A stretch of DNA of 64,000 nucleotides from Nostoc linckia z4 (GTDB lineage: Bacteria > Cyanobacteriota > Cyanobacteriia > Cyanobacteriales > Nostocaceae): assembly GCF_002608075.1 (NCBI RefSeq), contig NZ_LAHA01000006.1:22711-86710 (forward strand), written 5' to 3'. The position numbers and the translations under genes were made by a program. This document shows, one piece after another, positions 83 to 64,000 of the stretch (the stretch's first letter is position 1; each line of letters opens with the position of its first letter). The notes under the pieces were generated by a model. That model was not told the origin of the DNA. It did not search any database and saw only the letters and a program-made list of their open reading frames with translations.

Positions 83-1101
83 ATTATGTACGGAGCGTTA
101 AACGCTGCTAATAAGGAGCCTATCAATAGGTAGCCTAATAATACACCAATCAACCAGTCCCAGGGAATAATTCTAGATGATTTAGTACTTGGTTTACTTA
201 GAATTGGCTCTAATAGCTTGGCTTTGGAACGAACAACTTCTTTTCTATGAACTGAAGCAACAGATGGTGGAGGCGTTGCTTTTGATACTTTTAGCATATT
301 CAACCATGCTTCCATAGATTGGGGGCGGTCGTTTGCCTCCAGCGCCATGCCTTTAAGAATTGCCTGATTTAATCTGTTGCTAATGCTTGGACTAATTTGT
401 TTAGGTGCAGTCAGAGAAGCATTATCGAGCTTGCGAGCTAGAGAAGTTGTAGGGCGTTGACCTGTCACTGCATAATAAAGCGTAGCAGCCAAACAATAAA
501 CATCAACAGTTGGCTCTCTACTGCCTCTGCTCATCTGTTCATAGGGCGCAAACCCTTCATTACCTGCAATACCCTTTGAACTCAAAGTTTTAGGCAAAAG
601 TTCCTTAGCGATTCCAAAGTCAATTAAAACGGCTTTGCCATTTCTCCGCACCATGATGTTTCCAGGATGGGCATCTCTATGTACTAAACCTGCTTGATGC
701 ACTACGCTCAAAGCTTCCCCAATTTGACGGATGCAGGGTACAATCTCTGCTTCTGGTAAAGCCCCCCTACGCCTCACCGCCTCAAACAAATTTTCTCCCT
801 CAACAAAGTCCATCACCAAACAGTGGATAGCACCTTCCCGAAACAAATCAATTACTCCCACAATGTGAGGATGAGGGTCTTCTGATAAGCGTGCGAGTAT
901 CCGCCCTTCTTGGATAAATCTGTCTATATACTTTTCATATTCCGGATCGTGGCTGAGGTATTCATTAGGTGTCTTAATTACAACTGTCTGATTTAGTTCA
1001 ACATGTAAAGCCTTATAAGTAATCCCGAATCCCCCCTGCCCAAGGACTTGCTCAATTACATATTTGCCACCTTGCAATTGTTGTCCTGCTATCCAGGGCA
1101 T
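1..1101 (-). CDS. Serine/threonine protein kinase with repetitive hydrophobic tail, C-terminus cut by window edge
   Basis: Open from an ATG at 1101 to the window edge (367 codons, no stop), so partial. The N-terminus MPWIAGQQLQGGKYVIEQ leads into a Gly-rich loop (GQGGFG), a VAIK-like lysine (VVIKT), the catalytic loop HRDAHPGN and DFGIAKEL, which together define a Hanks-type kinase predicted to phosphorylate Ser/Thr residues. HPGN in place of KPxN is common in cyanobacterial members. After the kinase domain comes a basic/Ser-rich linker and one clear membrane segment (WLIGVLLGYLLIGSLLAAF), then a run of alternating Trp-Ala, Val-Ala, Gly-Ala and Thr-Val from a hexamer-like DNA repeat at 1-82. 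The start is supported by alignment with the N-terminus of the upstream paralogue. The 60 bp gap suggests one transcript with that kinase. The substrate is unknown. Confidence 0.9.
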   Translation of the reverse strand, partial: MPWIAGQQLQGGKYVIEQVLGQGGFGITYKALHVELNQTVVIKTPNEYLSHDPEYEKYIDRFIQEGRILARLSEDPHPHIVGVIDLFREGAIHCLVMDFVEGENLFEAVRRRGALPEAEIVPCIRQIGEALSVVHQAGLVHRDAHPGNIMVRRNGKAVLIDFGIAKELLPKTLSSKGIAGNEGFAPYEQMSRGSREPTVDVYCLAATLYYAVTGQRPTTSLARKLDNASLTAPKQISPSISNRLNQAILKGMALEANDRPQSMEAWLNMLKVSKATPPPSVASVHRKEVVRSKAKLLEPILSKPSTKSSRIIPWDWLIGVLLGYLLIGSLLAAFNAPYIIWAWAWAWAVAVAGAGAVTVTVAVAVAG

Positions 1102-1161
1102 GAATACCTCTAAGTAAAAAATTACTTTAATGCAAGCATTTTAATGAGAGTTTAGCTAATT

Positions 1162-2196
1162 CTACGGTGTTTTGCTAGATGAAGGACTGGGAGACACTAA
1201 TGCTGGACTGGAAGACGGAGATGTTTTGATAAAAGGAATCCAACCAACTATGCCTGAAAGTAAGGTTCCAATTGCAGCAATGGCAGCTATCACAATTCCC
1301 CAAAACTGGATGTTTCGCTCCCAATTTGAGTTGGTGTTAGATGATACAATTACTGAAGGCTGAGAATTTTCCACAGTTAACCCTAAAGAATCGAGCCATT
1401 GGCGCATTGATTGAGGACGCTGTTTCGGGTCTAGTTGCATAGCTGTTAAAATTGCTTCATTGACGTGACGGCTGATTTGCTCGTTGAATTCTTTAGGAGA
1501 TACTAAATGCTCGCCGTCAACTTTGCGCTTTATTGCATCAACAGGTGTTCTTCCTGTCAAAAGTTTATACAGAGTAGCAGCTAGTGAATAAATATCGCTA
1601 TATGCACGAGTTATAGTACCTCTAGCGTAAAGCTCAGGGGGCGTAAATCCATCAGAAGTTTCCTTAGTTCGGCTTGTGGTTAAAATATGGTCAAAGTCCA
1701 AAGCTAAACCAAAATCAATTAGTACCGCTTCTAGCTGTCCCTCTCGCTTCCGCAACAAAATATTTCCTGGATGCACATCCCGATGAATCAGTTCATTTTC
1801 ATGTACAACTATCAGTGCTTCCCCAATTTGCTGAATGTAACGTAGTGCATCTGGTTCTGAAAGTATTGGTGGACGCAGGTCAGCCAAACTCACTTCATTT
1901 ACATACTCCATTACCAAACACAAACAGTCTGCTTCTTCAAAGGAGTCTACAACCTCCACAATGTACTTATGCTTACACTTTTGCAGCTTTAAAGCCTCCC
2001 GCAAAAACATTGTCTTTAGCCGTTCGCGCTCCAATTGACTAAGGGAATTTAGCAAGTCATCATTTAAGGTTTTAATGACAAAGCGATCGCCATTCTGATT
2101 TTTCACCAAATAAGTAATGCCAAAGCGTCCTCTTCCCAACTCTTTTTCAATGGTGTATTTTCCACCTTGCAAGCGATCGCCAACTCCCCAAGCCAT
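1162..2196 (-). CDS. Serine/threonine protein kinase with C-terminal membrane anchor
   Basis: Hanks-type kinase of about 344 residues. Visible motifs are LGRGRFG (nucleotide loop), FVIKTL (Lys), HRDVHPGN (catalytic loop) and IDFGLALDF (metal-binding DFG), followed by a single hydrophobic helix (FWGIVIAAIAAIGTLLSGIV) and a Ser/Pro-rich end, so the kinase domain probably faces the cytoplasm on a membrane anchor. I chose the ATG at 2196 over one 36 bp upstream because GGGAG lies at a suitable distance and the product then starts MAWGVGDRLQGG, matching the next kinase downstream. The two kinases are separated by 60 bp and look like tandem paralogues. The substrate is unknown. Confidence 0.9.
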   Translation of the reverse strand: MAWGVGDRLQGGKYTIEKELGRGRFGITYLVKNQNGDRFVIKTLNDDLLNSLSQLERERLKTMFLREALKLQKCKHKYIVEVVDSFEEADCLCLVMEYVNEVSLADLRPPILSEPDALRYIQQIGEALIVVHENELIHRDVHPGNILLRKREGQLEAVLIDFGLALDFDHILTTSRTKETSDGFTPPELYARGTITRAYSDIYSLAATLYKLLTGRTPVDAIKRKVDGEHLVSPKEFNEQISRHVNEAILTAMQLDPKQRPQSMRQWLDSLGLTVENSQPSVIVSSNTNSNWERNIQFWGIVIAAIAAIGTLLSGIVGWIPFIKTSPSSSPALVSPSPSSSKTP

Positions 2197-2376
2197 CTTT
2201 GCAACTCCCAAAATGCTTAGATTAATTCTCACACAAGAGAGCCTTAATAACTTGAGCCTAGCTTTGGAGAAAGACTGCGATCCAATACTGTTCGGTTAAG
2301 GCACCAGACGCGATCGCTTTTTTCTCCCTCTATTGCTAAACTAAAAACAACCTTTAGCTAGTGCAAAGGTAACTTT

Positions 2377-3183
2377 ATGACCTCTGCAACCAACCTCGAT
2401 ACCGATCTCACCCCATTTCCTGACCACACGCAGCTACCAGATTCCGATGGCACCTTTGTGAAAAATTGGCAAGAGCATCCCCAAAGTATCTTACTAACTG
2501 ACTCAATTACACCCATTCTTCAGCAATTACATCCAGAAGGTCAATATTGTATAGGTCAGGACTTAGGTATTTACTGGCGGTTAACAGATCCTCCAGAGAA
2601 AGGAGCAGTAGCACCGGATTGGTTTTATGTACCAAATGTACCGCCTTCGTTAGATGGACTTTCACGAAGGTCTTATGTGTTGTGGCGAGAGTTTATTGCA
2701 CCATTGATTGCTTTGGAATTTGTCTCTGGTGATGGCAAGGAAGAAAGAGACAAAACTCCTTGGAAGGGTAAATTTTGGATTTATGAGCAGGTGATTCATC
2801 CAGCTTTTTATGGCATTTATGAAGTGAATCAAGCCAGTGTGGAAGTTTATGAATTAATCGGAGGACAATATCAGTTATTAGCAGCAAATGAGCGCGGACA
2901 TTATCCCATACATCGTTTAGGCGTTGAATTAGGTCTGTGGCATGGACAATATCAGAACATGGAATTACCCTGGCTGCGCTGGTGGGATTTGCAAGGTAAT
3001 TTGTTGTTGACTGGCGATGAAAGAGCTGAACAAGAACGCCAACGTGCTGAACAAGAACGCCAACGTGCTGAACAAGAACGCCAACGTGCTGAACAAGAAC
3101 GCCAACGTGCTGAACAAGAACGCCAACGCAATGAGATTCTGATTGCTCAATTGCGATCGCTCGGCGTTGAACCAGAAGCTTAA
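2377..3183 (+). CDS. Uma2 family (DUF820) PD-(D/E)XK nuclease-like protein
   Basis: 268 residues. The core has the family pattern APDWFYV, then LIALEFVSGDG, then GKFWIYEQV and a GIYEV strand, giving the Asp, Glu and Lys expected of a PD-(D/E)XK active site. The family is massively expanded in filamentous cyanobacteria; its members are annotated as putative endonucleases, but their biological role is not established. The C-terminus is a charged helix made of five 7-residue units (AEQERQR) coded by a near-perfect 21-bp DNA repeat, then the conserved tail IAQLRSLGVEPEA. First of a tandem pair with the next gene; no toxin or antitoxin partner is visible. Confidence 0.85.
   Translation: MTSATNLDTDLTPFPDHTQLPDSDGTFVKNWQEHPQSILLTDSITPILQQLHPEGQYCIGQDLGIYWRLTDPPEKGAVAPDWFYVPNVPPSLDGLSRRSYVLWREFIAPLIALEFVSGDGKEERDKTPWKGKFWIYEQVIHPAFYGIYEVNQASVEVYELIGGQYQLLAANERGHYPIHRLGVELGLWHGQYQNMELPWLRWWDLQGNLLLTGDERAEQERQRAEQERQRAEQERQRAEQERQRAEQERQRNEILIAQLRSLGVEPEA
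3025..3129 (+). repeat. 21-bp tandem repeat encoding AEQERQR heptads
   Basis: Five nearly identical 21-bp units inside the first Uma2 gene. The second copy of the gene has only three, more diverged units, so the number of coiled-coil heptads has changed since the duplication. Confidence 0.9.
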
Positions 3184-58782: not shown

Positions 58783-58912
58783 ACTTCTTGCAGAAGTAGG
58801 GAAAAGGGAAAGGGGAAAGGGGGTGCATGTTTGGTATTTTCCCTTTCCCCGGTTGTGAGCTTGTCGAACCATTAACATGATTCCCTTTGACCACAAGAGT
58901 GCAAGAGGTTTA
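58780..58912. mobile_element. MITE-like element (copy 3) that supplies two stop codons
   Basis: 133 bp from TAGACTTCTTGCAGAAGTAG to AGTGCAAGAGGTTTA. Its first TAG is the stop of the WecA-like gene and its last TTA is, on the other strand, the TAA stop of hppD. The interior includes CGGTTGTGAGCTTGTCGAAC, the reverse of the dispersed repeat at about 5459. Confidence 0.85.
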
Positions 58913-59977
58913 TTGTAGACTACCGCGTTTAATTTGTTCGCTTTCAATGGCTTCAAATAAAGCACGAAAGTTGCCTTCGCCAAAACCTTGAGCTTGGAAA
59001 CGGCGCTCAATGAATTCAAAGAAGAATGTCGGCTGTTCAAATATTGGTTGGGTAAAAATTTGTAGTAATAATGGCGCGTTATTTCGTCCATCTAAAGGAG
59101 TATATTCTTGCCAATCAACGAGAATTTCTTGTTGGGCGATCGCTGCAATTTCTATATCTGATAATGGAAATTTCGGACGCTGTTTTAATTGTGTGTAATA
59201 GCTTTGGGGAACTGAAAGCAAGGATAAACCACTAGCACGAAATTTGGCGATCGCACTTACAAGATTTGTTGTCCGCAAAGCAATATGTTGAATACCTGGC
59301 CCCCGATTTACATCTAAAAATTCCTGAATTTGCGAATTTCTAGAAGCTGGTTCATTAATTGGCAATTGGACGTTGCCGTTACGCGAAACCATCACTTGAC
59401 TATGTAAAGCAGAGCGATCGGTTTTAATTTTAAATACCTGCTGTGGTTTAAAATCGAGGATGTTTTCATACCAAGCAACAGCACGTTCTAAATCGCCAAT
59501 TGCCACATTCAGTACGATGTGATCTATGGCAGTAATTAAAGAAGACGCAGGGACACGGGGAGAAGGAGACGCGGTGAAAGAATCTACTCCTCTTTCTATC
59601 AATGTATGAGTCAGTCCGCCCCAAGCGGCAATTTTGCTGGACTTAACAGATATTTCGCCTACATTTTCTTCTAGTATGGGTTGTAAAACTGTGGCACCGT
59701 GGATTTTAGCATGTGCGATCGCTGCTTCTACGTCTTCCACAACAAAGGCAACATCGGCTACGCCAGGGGGATATTGACGGAGAAATTCAGCCACCGGACT
59801 TGTGGGTAACAGTGGTGAAGACAGCAAAAAGCAGACGTTACCACTTTTAACGACTTCCGTACAAGTATGAAATGAACTACTGTGATGGGCTGCTGCTTGA
59901 AAACCAAGATGGTTTACAAACCAATCCCGCCACTTTTTGGCGTTTTCTACATAGAAATGAACGCTATCGAGTTTCAT
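58910..59977 (-). CDS. hppD: 4-hydroxyphenylpyruvate dioxygenase
   Basis: 355 residues. Two vicinal-oxygen-chelate domains; the C-terminal one supplies the iron ligands in IDHIVLNV (His), GIQHIALRT (His) and FFFEFIERR (Glu). It makes homogentisate from 4-hydroxyphenylpyruvate, the first committed step to tocopherol in cyanobacteria. The last codons (GSLQ) and stop run into the adjacent MITE-like element, so the extreme C-terminus may be altered. A short repeat-like SFTASPSPRVPASS linker joins the two domains. Confidence 0.94.
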   Translation of the reverse strand: MKLDSVHFYVENAKKWRDWFVNHLGFQAAAHHSSSFHTCTEVVKSGNVCFLLSSPLLPTSPVAEFLRQYPPGVADVAFVVEDVEAAIAHAKIHGATVLQPILEENVGEISVKSSKIAAWGGLTHTLIERGVDSFTASPSPRVPASSLITAIDHIVLNVAIGDLERAVAWYENILDFKPQQVFKIKTDRSALHSQVMVSRNGNVQLPINEPASRNSQIQEFLDVNRGPGIQHIALRTTNLVSAIAKFRASGLSLLSVPQSYYTQLKQRPKFPLSDIEIAAIAQQEILVDWQEYTPLDGRNNAPLLLQIFTQPIFEQPTFFFEFIERRFQAQGFGEGNFRALFEAIESEQIKRGSLQ

Positions 59978-60092: not shown

Positions 60093-60797
60093 CTAAAAAA
60101 ACAAATGACTATCGGGTTGAATGTTTATCTCCATTGGTACAGCTTGCGGTTCGGCAGAAAGGGCAAAGAAAATCGCATTGGCGGCAGTTTCAGCACTAAG
60201 CATTTTTTTCCGGTCTACTTTTAAGCTGACGTTATCCCAAAAAGGAGAATCTACCCCACCAAAGTAGAATAGCGTGAACTTGATACCAAAGCGCTTGAGT
60301 TCCTCTGCCATGCATTTGCTAAAACCGACAACACCAAACTTGGAAGCAGAATAAGCCGCCGCCATTCCCATTGAATGCTTGCCGAGAATTCCTACCACAT
60401 TACAGATGTGACCAGACTTGTGTTTTTGCATCTCTTGGGCAGCAGCCTGAGTGGTGTAGAAACTGCCTTTTAAGTTGACATCTAACATTTTGTCTAAATC
60501 AGCAGGTTCCAGGCTATTGTAAGGCTTGAGTATGCCAGCACCAGCAGCATTCACCAAGATATCAATTTGACCAAACTCAGCAACAGTTTTTTCAATCAAA
60601 GTCTTTACTTGTTGAGGATCGGTAATATCGGTGGGAACGGTCAAAACTTGCCCTGGTAAATCAGCAGCCAGTGTGGTTAAACGCACCGCATCCCTCGCAG
60701 CCAATACAAACTTCACTTTGCTAGAAGCAAGTTTACGTGTTAAAGCTGAACCAATACCGCCGGTAGCACCGACAATAACAACGACTTTATCTTGCAT
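60093..60797 (-). CDS. Short-chain dehydrogenase/reductase
   Basis: 234 residues of the classical SDR type: GATGGIGSAL (cofactor loop), NAAGAG, and the catalytic YSASK, preceded by the expected Asn and VVGILGKHSM in the serine position's region (a Gly-Ile-Leu replaces the usual SSxxG). NAD(P)-dependent oxidoreductase of unknown substrate. It follows hppD on the same strand after about 115 bp; no pathway link can be claimed. Confidence 0.87.
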   Translation of the reverse strand: MQDKVVVIVGATGGIGSALTRKLASSKVKFVLAARDAVRLTTLAADLPGQVLTVPTDITDPQQVKTLIEKTVAEFGQIDILVNAAGAGILKPYNSLEPADLDKMLDVNLKGSFYTTQAAAQEMQKHKSGHICNVVGILGKHSMGMAAAYSASKFGVVGFSKCMAEELKRFGIKFTLFYFGGVDSPFWDNVSLKVDRKKMLSAETAANAIFFALSAEPQAVPMEINIQPDSHLFF

Positions 60798-61311: not shown

Positions 61312-62604
61312 CTATTGCAGCATTACCTCATAGTCTTTGCCATTTGGTTTTAATACAAATGTAGAAGATGATTCTAAATATTTGGTAAAACTAGAACCTA
61401 ATTTTAGCTTTTTTAGAATTGAAGTAGGAGATATTCCTGTTATTTTTTGTATCTCTGTACCTAGTTTAGATACAGATAATTTAGTTTGAGGAGAATTGAT
61501 TTGAAACTCTCGAATTATTTTTAATAAAAATTTATCTAATGTCTGGCGATCGCCAATTTGAATAAACTTGTCTTCTTTCTCTAGTTTAATGTTAATCGAT
61601 TGTGTAGATAATTCATCTTGAGGATAAATTGCTTCTGCAATTTCTGGAGGATGTTGATGAATGTTAGTATTGAGATTACGCCTTTCTTCAAATAAATTCG
61701 CAATAGTGGCTAAATTTTGTAATTTCGTATTGATTGAATTTTGTTCATTTTTAATTAAATCCTGAATTTCTGCAACTACTTGTTGCAAAGATGGAATTTC
61801 TCTGGCTATTGTTATAGAATAATGAGTTAAGTTACCAGTATTTCTGTTTTCTATATGCAAAGTTTGTCCTTGTCTACGCACCCAATAAACAATCAAGCCT
61901 TGATTTTGCAGTTCGTTACAGAGGTGAACTAAAATTCCATCGCCAGAACAGACAAAAATTTCTTTAACTGTGGGATATGAGCGTAATATAGAAGCACCAA
62001 ATCCAATCATTTTAGCATCAGCACTATCCTTACCTCCAGGCACATGAATCAGTTGATAGCCACGCTTATACAGTTCAATATCGTGCTTACCAATACTGGG
62101 ATTTCTCCAATTAGCAAATGCTAATTTAACTTCCAGTGCATACTCACATATACTCGCTAAAAATAATTCAGAATTAATATCTAATTTTAAATTTTCCGCG
62201 TCTAAAAGTAAAAGAGAAATTTTTGTTTCTAATTGATGTTTCTGTTTGCTTTCCTGTTTTGGGTGAAGTTTTTGAATAAATTGGTTAAAAGTATCAGATT
62301 CTAGCAAATCTGGGGATAATAAAATTTTCCTTAGTTCTTCAGCAAAAAGCGAACTAAAAGAACTAAGGCTTATTTCTGTCAATTTTTCTTCTATTGGTAG
62401 TTTTTTTGCTAAAGCAATTTCTGTAGCTTCAGCCACAGTTGATTTAGTATGTCCATTACTATTAGCAATCAAATCACTTTCTACCAAAGGAGAAAGTATT
62501 GGTTCAAGGAATTGTTTACCACAGTTTTTGCACAGGTAATTCTGCTTGCCATTCCGACGACCATTTTTACGATATGAAGTAGATTCGCACCGGGGACATT
62601 TCAT
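61312..62604 (-). CDS. Zinc-ribbon/NYN nuclease/LOTUS-like protein
   Basis: 430 residues. Residues 3-28: four-cysteine zinc ribbon (CPRC...CKNC) like that of IS1-type InsA proteins (QNYLCKNCGKQFLE). Residues about 127-270: NYN/PIN-like nuclease with LLLLDAENLKL (Asp135), GGKDSADAKM (Asp193, Asp196) and VCSGDGI (Asp222), the expected acidic cluster. Residues about 345-425: winged-helix module with LSVSKLGTEIQKITGISPTS and KLKLGSSFTKYLE, resembling OST-HTH/LOTUS RNA-binding domains. Soluble; probable RNA-targeting nuclease. Upstream of it is pstB but in the same direction with 150 bp between. Function unproven. Confidence 0.8.
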   Translation of the reverse strand: MKCPRCESTSYRKNGRRNGKQNYLCKNCGKQFLEPILSPLVESDLIANSNGHTKSTVAEATEIALAKKLPIEEKLTEISLSSFSSLFAEELRKILLSPDLLESDTFNQFIQKLHPKQESKQKHQLETKISLLLLDAENLKLDINSELFLASICEYALEVKLAFANWRNPSIGKHDIELYKRGYQLIHVPGGKDSADAKMIGFGASILRSYPTVKEIFVCSGDGILVHLCNELQNQGLIVYWVRRQGQTLHIENRNTGNLTHYSITIAREIPSLQQVVAEIQDLIKNEQNSINTKLQNLATIANLFEERRNLNTNIHQHPPEIAEAIYPQDELSTQSINIKLEKEDKFIQIGDRQTLDKFLLKIIREFQINSPQTKLSVSKLGTEIQKITGISPTSILKKLKLGSSFTKYLESSSTFVLKPNGKDYEVMLQ

Positions 62605-62754
62605 TTTTTATTGAGGTGGTCTAAAGCAGATACTCTTCTTAAGTTTATATTATAAAAAATTATCTTCGCTTAAATTAGTATTGCCCAACACAAGAAAAAC
62701 TCAAAACTCGTGGAAATTAAATTACAGTCATTTGTTTTGATTTTTAGCCAAATT

Positions 62755-63534
62755 TTAATTGATGCGGGCAAAAACGTAATCGCGGGTACGGGAATCAAGG
62801 GGATTTGTAAAAATTTTATTTGTAGTACCAAATTCAACCATTTGAGTAATCCGATTTTCATTGCTGTGAAAGAAAGCCGTAAAATCAGACAGGCGAGTCA
62901 CTTGTTGCATGTTGTGGGTGACAATTACAATTGTCAACTCAGAGCGCAAGCTCTGAATCAGATTTTCAATTTGCATACTACCAATAGGATCGAGACCCGA
63001 ACAAGGTTCATCCATTAATAAAACTTTTGGTTTAACTGCCAAAGCGCGGGCAATACATAATCTTTGTTGTTGTCCTCCAGAAAGTTCTAAAGCAGATTTG
63101 TGCAATTTATTTTTCAGTTCATCCCAAAGTTCCGCAGCTTTAATGGCAGATTCGACAATTGCATCTAATTCTACTTTCGGATGCCATCCAACTAATTTCA
63201 CACCATAGGCAACATTATCATAAACGCTCATAGGAAAAAGATTTGGCTTAGGAAAAACCATACTAATTTGGCGACGTAATCTACTTAAATTGACACGACG
63301 CTCATAAATATTTTGTCCATAAAATTCTACTCTTCCTTCAACAGTTACCTCTGCTTCTAATTCATTCATCCGATTTAACGATTTAAGAAAAGTAGACTTG
63401 CCACAACCACTAGAACCAATAATTGCCGTGATTTGGTTTTGGTAAATATCCATTGACACACCTTCAACTATCTTTTGAGTCTCGTAATAGAAGCTGAAGT
63501 TTTTGACTCTGATGGCTGAAATTAGTTTACTCAT
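62755..63534 (-). CDS. pstB: Phosphate ABC transporter ATPase PstB
   Basis: 259 residues from the ATG at 63534; a start 33 bp upstream is less likely. Walker A GSSGCGKST, signature LSGGQQQR, Walker B VLLMDEP with the following CSGLDP, and THNMQQVTRLSDFTAFF near the C-terminus, which is specific to PstB. It drives high-affinity phosphate import with PstS, PstA and PstC. It differs from usual PstB in MVFPKPNLFP (Q-loop normally FQ.PNPFP), so the Q-loop glutamine is replaced by Pro-Lys. Tandem with a second pstB upstream. Confidence 0.93.
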   Translation of the reverse strand: MSKLISAIRVKNFSFYYETQKIVEGVSMDIYQNQITAIIGSSGCGKSTFLKSLNRMNELEAEVTVEGRVEFYGQNIYERRVNLSRLRRQISMVFPKPNLFPMSVYDNVAYGVKLVGWHPKVELDAIVESAIKAAELWDELKNKLHKSALELSGGQQQRLCIARALAVKPKVLLMDEPCSGLDPIGSMQIENLIQSLRSELTIVIVTHNMQQVTRLSDFTAFFHSNENRITQMVEFGTTNKIFTNPLDSRTRDYVFARIN

Positions 63535-63721
63535 ATTCCCAAAACGTGTGAAACAATACTTGACCAAGTAAGGTATTACAAATCAGCAGTGCTGTTTCAC
63601 TATGTTACTCCTAAAAGGAGAACTTCATGGAAAATACGTAAGTATATAGTAAATATATAGCAAATATACCGTTAGTAAACGTTTATATTAAATTATGTCG
63701 CAAAAATCATTGTTGAGAAAA

Positions 63722-63807: not shown

Positions 63808-64000
63808 TTACCCAAAACGTCCTGAAATGTAGTCGCGGGTGCGGGGGTCGATTGGGTTGTTGAAGATTTGTTCTGTAGCGCCAAATTCAATCATTTGACC
63901 AATTCGACTTTCATCGGTGCTAAAGAAAGCTGTAAAATCAGAGACGCGAGCAGCTTGCTGCATGTTATGGGTAACGATCGCAATGGTCAACTGAGACCGC
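63808..64000 (-). CDS. pstB: Phosphate ABC transporter ATPase PstB, second copy, partial (C-terminus only)
   Basis: The last 64 codons ([20 protein letters not shown] ... GRFG) of another PstB; the gene continues past the window edge. It contains the [17 protein letters not shown] and [20 protein letters not shown] ends typical of PstB, more canonical in spelling than the copy downstream (VARLSD type). It probably belongs to a larger pst operon that also includes the 62.8 kb copy. Confidence 0.93.

Follow-up and report, generated by a model that had tools for sequence, protein, structure and literature searches.

Bacterial proteins that join an LK-nuclease (DUF88/NYN) domain to an OST-HTH domain have been known since 2010 (Anantharaman, Zhang and Aravind, PMC2848206). 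In the accessible part of that report, they were proposed to be standalone enzymes of RNA degradation and were thought to be ancestral to germline RNA regulators of animals; no conserved association of their genes with known systems of RNA processing was reported. The acidic patch of human MARF1 comprises Asp358, Asp426, Asp427, and Asp452, and nuclease activity was strongly reduced when 426 and 427 were both mutated (PMC6294520, accessible part). The open-licence literature, as far as its text was accessible, yielded no description of a zinc ribbon combined with NYN and LOTUS domains or of a linkage of such a gene to pst genes. Of the cyanobacterial reports accessible in part, one describes Npun_R1332 of Nostoc punctiforme, a NYN gene with strong induction that adjoins RNase III and was for this reason taken as a different gene (PMC7660261), another names a NYN gene of Mastigocladus (PMC9284123), and a study of phosphorus in Trichodesmium does not mention NYN in its accessible main text (PMC6411698).

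The window, i.e. the whole stretch of 64,000 nucleotides analysed (G000:C91:22711-86710), belongs to a genome of 8.99 Mb. On its minus strand, the ORF listing and translation gave a gene for a 430-aa protein (61312..62604) with an ATG start codon at 62604; the plus-strand frame over 61312..62604 was closed by many stops. Profiles, structure models, and structural alignments confirmed the three modules of the first-pass annotation in the order zinc ribbon, NYN domain, and LOTUS domain. The closest named relative in a tree of 117 NYN cores was Nostoc sp. ATCC 43529. Against Nostoc and Desmonostoc (six comparisons), purifying selection was strongest in the ribbon (dN 0-0.04 versus dS 0.10-0.38) and the NYN domain (dN 0.03-0.08 versus dS 0.29-0.57). 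The protein is probably (at roughly 0.62) an RNA endonuclease that cyanobacteria have inherited vertically and that belongs to the MARF1/limkain kind, in which an LK-nuclease is combined with LOTUS.

The NYN (PIN-like) nuclease domain comprises residues 126-268 (61801..62229, minus strand). Pfam PF01936 matched residues 132-242 with 31.2 bits (cut-off 24.2), and the NYN profile matched 39 of 40 family members at E<=0.1. These 40 sequences (alignment A2) were chosen from among the window protein and the 79 loci that made up the best 80 of 248 matches in a profile scan of genome contigs, all with cyanobacterial titles. VIA-align superimposed residues 126-266 on the NYN domain of mouse MARF1 (5yaa) with Z 13.0, rmsd 3.3, and 131 aligned residues, which placed MARF1 first among the candidates supplied by Foldseek; VPA0982 followed with Z 11.9. 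Foldseek itself, run with the whole model, returned mixed folds, none at E<=0.001, with MARF1 at rank 31, and solved structures contained no convincing relative when searched by sequence, whether with the lone protein or with a profile. Asp135, Glu137, Asn138, Asp196, and Asp222 were invariant in all 40 ribbon-clade sequences. Of the two aspartates that the first-pass annotation put forward for mutagenesis, Asp135 stands as a target, but position 193 is N in 27, D in 12, and S in one of the 40 sequences; it is Asp196 and Asp222 that equal Asp135 in invariance. The motifs D-x-E-N, A-D, and C-S-S-D were also kept in all nine ribbonless paralogues of alignment A3. The aspartates are spaced by 61 and 26 residues in the window protein and by 68-69 and 25-26 in human MARF1; from these spacing numbers alone, we infer that Asp135, Asp196, and Asp222 correspond to the MARF1 patch, and Ala195 seems to replace one of the two neighbouring aspartates of MARF1. 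All 40 sequences have L, I, or V at position 224, so that the second D of the SGDxD motif is missing; this motif is present in L143-L145, which together with L146 (G000:C21:30057-30497, 389 aa, N-terminal half coiled-coil-like by eye) are other NYN proteins of the same genome.

The LOTUS/OST-HTH winged helix at the C-terminus (residues 346-430, 61315..61569, minus strand) was recognised mainly by its modelled fold. Predicted separately, residues 346-430 reached a mean pLDDT of 92.4 and aligned to the Tejas LOTUS domain 8wxs with Z 10.1 and rmsd 2.1 (71 aligned residues, target of 75 residues), followed by the LOTUS domains of TDRD5 (Z 9.1) and TDRD7 (Z 8.6), whereas general winged helices scored Z values of approximately 6 to 7. 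Residues 349-430 of the full model aligned to the Oskar LOTUS domain over 71 residues (Z 7.2, VIA-align). The segment thus matched a winged-helix fold, and its designation as LOTUS-like was borne out by structural alignment. The Pfam profiles gave a mixed answer, with NYN above its cut-off, but InsA and OST-HTH below theirs; OST-HTH scored 12.4 bits with the window protein (cut-off 23.8) and matched 13 of the 40 family members at E<=0.1 (best 1.1e-4). In the full-length model, which was built from the 40 sequences (mean pLDDT 77.1, pTM 0.41), the ribbon, the NYN domain, and the C-terminal domain were mostly above pLDDT 80, and the linkers 38-78, 115-125, and 317-345 were below 50, so that the relative placing of the domains is not fixed by the model. 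Two helices of moderate model confidence (residues 78-113, 62266..62373, minus strand) partly align with the N-terminal helical region of a ribbonless paralogue (alignment A1), and a long modelled helix (residues 273-315, 61660..61788, minus strand) is a possible dimer or spacer element.

The ribbon (residues 1-34, 62503..62604, minus strand) contains Cys 3, 6, 25, and 28 and matched NCBIfam NF050000 (IS1_IS1595_Zn) over residues 3-34 with 50.7 bits (E 1.9e-13, cut-off 28), as expected from the InsA-like four-Cys ribbon initially proposed. NF050000 was matched by 36 of the 40 aligned family members; the Pfam InsA model (PF03811) remained at 16.7 bits with the window protein (cut-off 26.1) and matched 34 of the 40 at E<=0.1 (best 4.7e-9). 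Residues 1-30 were modelled with pLDDT >90, and the four cysteines were kept in 36, 36, 36, and 37 of the 40 sequences. The IS1 transposase model NF033558 reached 38.2 bits at a cut-off of 100, and the structure model had no helix-turn-helix of the InsA type behind the ribbon, with residues 38-78 at pLDDT <50. As judged from profiles and model, the protein is not a transposase, because neither a helix-turn-helix nor a transposase domain follows its ribbon. The ribbon cysteines were gone in six relatives that form one subclade (L114, L118, L122, L124, L125, and L142); within the first 40 residues, five of them had no cysteine and L114 had one, and their N-termini still resemble the ribbon (MKNPRRSPDRF... 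versus MKCPRCESDQV...). On sequence evidence, the cysteines were lost later, in one subgroup of the ribbon clade, and because they are gone there, zinc appears dispensable in that subclade, whose members represent natural zinc-free NYN-LOTUS variants. The same ribbon module was found fused to other cyanobacterial proteins. L170 (G001:C32, 799-1944, plus strand) is a sigma-70-like factor with regions 2 and 4 above the Pfam cut-offs, an IS1-type ribbon near the C-terminus, and possibly a helix-turn-helix after it. L148 (G024, 1342-2427, minus strand) and L149 (G026, 382-1695, plus strand) are long acidic proteins with a C-terminal ribbon and a common LEPYR(R/K)MVRS stretch close to the start, for which Pfam at E<=0.001 gave zinc ribbons and no other domain.

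In the proposed mechanism, the NYN domain would cut single-stranded RNA using Mg2+ or Mn2+, and LOTUS and ribbon, located one at each end on flexible linkers, would keep the RNA in place or confer selectivity for it. Two copies of the protein may pair through the long helix; the protein would act alone as an RNA decay or processing factor. RNA decay had already been considered in the first-pass annotation and is the likeliest of its functional readings, given the MARF1-like NYN domain, invariant aspartates, and LOTUS; the sub-threshold OST-HTH score, the apparent Ala195 in place of a MARF1 aspartate, and the six relatives without ribbon cysteines limit this assignment. The probable RNA endonuclease looks like a settled household enzyme rather than a fresh transposon capture, because its ribbon looks like one old acquisition and its gene frequently lies beside phosphate-uptake genes.

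A match to the gene was found in all 22 same-genus relatives and was an intact single ORF in 19 of them; the three others had a C-terminal piece (G009), two ORFs (G016), or stops (G019). Some Nostoc genomes carry decaying or split copies, in which stops or an interrupted frame lie close to the N-terminal part: L024 (G019), L025/L098 (G016), and L072. Some match occurred in 38 of 39 genomes, the own one included, which in several was merely the ribbon against some other ORF. In a phylum-wide sample, 61 of 386 genomes matched the family profile at E<=1e-10, ribbonless paralogues counted; all but one belong to the same order, and a few hold pieces only, such as G179 with a piece containing stops. 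With an intact copy missing in three of 22 relatives and the family present in 61 of 386 genomes, the gene is not essential to cyanobacteria at large. The ribbonless paralogues stood in tandem with ribbon genes in L049, L099, L103-L106, and L108.

To place the ribbon within the family, 117 of 150 ORFs with a NYN core were used in a first tree; the 33 others (32 locus ids) were mostly duplicate locus ids of the same genomes, besides the fragments L072, L096, L100, and L127, the broken L024, and the intact ribbon gene L010. A fully supported branch separated 31 rows without ribbon from 86 others: 79 with the ribbon, six with the cysteine-less ribbon region, and one (L098) with its N-terminus in another ORF. 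All 79 ribbon rows fell into one clade (support 100/100), and the ribbon label required 4 changes versus a mean of 32.4 in shuffles. A second tree of 71 rows (30 hand-picked from the first and 41 new, both L215 rows omitted as the genome of L049) again united all 28 ribbon rows (support 99/100) and, with L146 alone as outgroup after L143-L145 had fallen to the score filter, had its root on the ribbonless side; this fits a single gain of the ribbon rather than a loss, though weakly, because the outgroup branch was 6.6 changes per column long. Since the ribbon rows form one well supported clade that spans several cyanobacterial families, the ribbon was most likely an old single acquisition, and a recent capture from a transposon was rejected on account of the common old clade of its carriers in both trees. 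The window ribbon shared 63% identity with the ribbon of an IS1-like ORF in the same genome (G000:C2) and up to 88% with a NYN ribbon from another family. For 56 of 57 NYN ribbons, the nearest ribbon outside their own clade belonged to another NYN protein and not to the small sample of 17 other ribbons, a result favoured by the unequal sample sizes. The initial view of a captured ribbon is therefore retained as a single gain, but not as a recent event, and the supposed transposon derivation did not find support in the ribbon-versus-IS1 comparison, in which NYN ribbons lay nearest one another. The counter-possibility raised with it, a ribbon ancestral to the family, holds for the one clade across several cyanobacterial families and not for NYN-LOTUS proteins as a whole. 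Ribbon and NYN core distances correlated over the 79 rows (Mantel r 0.82); when each of 14 clades was represented by a single row, r dropped to 0.08 (357 of 999 permutations as high), so co-evolution of the two was discarded as a conclusion that a 33-residue ribbon cannot show.

The gene lies 150 bp downstream of pstB' (62755..63567, minus strand), a second PstB-type phosphate ABC-transporter ATPase whose TIGR00972 score of 344.1 bits was barely above the cut-off of 343.2. The first pstB (63808..64000, minus strand, TIGR00972 380 bits) is cut by the window end, beyond which pstA, pstC, and pstS continue (ORFs of G000:C91:83000-94000); the corresponding locus L225 has two pstB genes in one pst cluster. 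On the other side follow an SDR-family oxidoreductase (60093..60797, minus strand, named by eye) and a VOC/HPPD-like dioxygenase (58910..59977, minus strand, from Pfam of the L084 homologue), both conserved downstream neighbours in Nostoc. Many Nostoc loci show the order pstS-C-A-B-B', ribbon gene, SDR, and HPPD-like VOC protein, in many cases followed by a HAD hydrolase; of these neighbours, the window genome contains the pst genes, SDR, and VOC. With only four pstB genes over the cut-off in 9 Mb of the own genome, chance adjacency is unlikely. In Microcoleaceae, the order is UbiD (divergent), ribbon gene, pstS-C-A-B, permease, ribbonless gene, SDR, and VOC (L120 and L134, overlapping parts of one contig), whereas Oscillatoria has a tandem of the ribbon and the ribbonless gene, with an sphX-type pst operon pointing towards both.

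That the gene adjoins pst genes in Nostoc and some of its relatives hints at a role in phosphate physiology. The corresponding explanation, a phosphate-linked RNA decay factor that acts with Pst (in Nostocaceae with pstB') in RNA recycling or in tuning of the pst transcript at low phosphate, is tentative and rather improbable. It is favoured by a pst gene within 1.5 kb in 43 of 76 ribbon rows versus 18 of 52 others, where rows are not independent, the others include fragments, NYN pieces <600 bases were left out, and tblastn may have taken other ABC ATPases for pstB. It is also favoured by the variety of arrangements (pstS-C-A-B-B' upstream, pstS-C-A-B downstream, or an sphX-type operon convergent or divergent) and by the occurrence of both operon types beside the ribbon gene. 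In a quick pstB tree, eight of nine sphX-operon rows and one unlabelled row formed a lineage (support 100) apart from the pstS type, and the pstB' directly before the gene in Nostocaceae formed its own lineage of 13 rows. Thirteen loci whose flank reaches 4 kb or more have pstB' before the gene and no other pst gene on its strand; the tree contained four of these loci plus L099, which has a shorter flank. A phosphate-coupled RNA decay factor of filamentous cyanobacteria, in which the often stand-alone PstB' and the ribbon-bearing nuclease would be a conserved Nostocaceae pair that links phosphate transport to RNA turnover, with an ex-transposase-type ribbon that now selects RNA, appears more doubtful still.

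However, pst proximity was concentrated in Nostoc/Calothrix loci (32 of 35 ribbon rows within 1.5 kb versus 11 of 41 elsewhere), which makes the phosphate explanation slightly less likely; no pst gene lay within this distance in Okeania (0/4), Hormoscilla (0/3), Trichodesmium (0/3, one without right flank), or G054-type Nostocaceae (0/4). A Pho box, defined as three tandem CTTAACCT-like boxes after the consensus in the accessible part of PMC1906773, was scored against 20 shuffles for each upstream region, with regions <150 bases left out. At p<=0.05, it was found in nine of 127 NYN upstream regions, about the chance level, while the positive controls pstS (21/29) and sphX (9/9) scored; the window gene scored 14 versus 13-16 in its shuffles, i.e. 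there is no box. Membership in the Pho regulon on the basis of an upstream box was accordingly rejected. An operon with pstB' was likewise rejected, given that 12 of 18 aligned regions carry a promoter-like TTGACA-16-TATAyT element ahead of the gene and some show a hairpin with T run behind pstB'. The window's own intergenic region (62605..62754, minus strand) has TATAAT without TTGACA. A terminator between pstB' and the gene is weakly supported by sequence; folding of three regions gave z values of -1.17, 0.76, and -0.19 and hence no unusual stability. The main alternative explanation of the adjacency is shared descent of gene order, since UbiD, SDR, and HPPD-like VOC genes are also frequent neighbours. 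The phosphate role is thus a lead, not a result.

A DNA-directed protein, whose ribbon and winged helix would attach to DNA and whose NYN domain would cleave structured DNA, is improbable, although a transposase origin of the ribbon would point that way. Its ribbon family is named after DNA transposases, and the folds also resemble 5'-nucleases (T5 exonuclease, Z 9.1) and DNA-binding winged helices, but the NYN and LOTUS matches, MARF1 at the head of the former, outranked these DNA-linked structures, and the model lacks the InsA-type helix-turn-helix mentioned above.

A role in defence against phages or mobile elements, with the ribbon recognising transcripts or ends of insertion sequences, is very improbable. 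Points in its favour are the transposase-type ribbon, the build-up of retrotransposon RNAs in MARF1-null mouse oocytes (PMC6294520, accessible part), and OST-HTH fusions with S1 domains, which serve as an effector module in some predicted bacterial conflict systems (PMC8195603, accessible part). However, the PADLOC library of 2023 gave no family for the window protein up to E 10, no defence island was seen at the loci, and inheritance was vertical under purifying selection beside household neighbours. The defence factor of the first-pass annotation was therefore dropped, as it also sits poorly with matches in all 22 same-genus relatives. LabA is a NYN protein of the cyanobacterial clock. A non-cutting RNA-binding regulator comparable to it would fit the apparent Ala in place of a MARF1 active-site Asp and the missing second D of SGDxD, but is the most improbable reading, as three aspartates and Asn138 invariant in 40 of 40 sequences would in our judgement be unusual for a pure scaffold.

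The roles of bacterial NYN-LOTUS proteins are little known, and the family described here is well delimited and has a third module that likely binds nucleic acid. The ribbonless paralogues and the relatives without zinc ligands provide a natural experiment, and both the choice of substrate and the way bacteria use LOTUS can be tested directly in culturable Nostoc. The ribbonless paralogues (e.g. L134, L138, L103:3272-4684) share the NYN core and the C-terminal LOTUS domain with the window protein, but have an N-terminal helical region in place of the ribbon and an extra region after NYN, perhaps a further winged helix (alignment A1). MARF1 (limkain b1) of animals shares NYN and LOTUS and the fold quantified above; the bacterial window protein, whose activity is predicted, differs in having no RRM that was found, one LOTUS domain versus eight in MARF1, and an added ribbon. 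With IS1 InsA and IS1595 transposases (NF050000, PF03811), it has the four-Cys ribbon in common, but not what follows it there. By the features tested in sequence and model, it fits the LK-nuclease plus OST-HTH kind, whose members pair a nuclease of the NYN type with one or two OST-HTH/LOTUS domains at the C-terminus. That kind has no conserved neighbourhood of RNA processing, and the frequent neighbours here, pst and quinone-related genes, are not RNA-processing genes either. The accessible part of PMC2848206 mentions RNA-binding Zn-knuckles with the nuclease domain but not the N-terminal IS1/IS1595-type ribbon that the window protein adds, and it is this ribbon that is unusual, the pairing of NYN and LOTUS in bacteria being already known.
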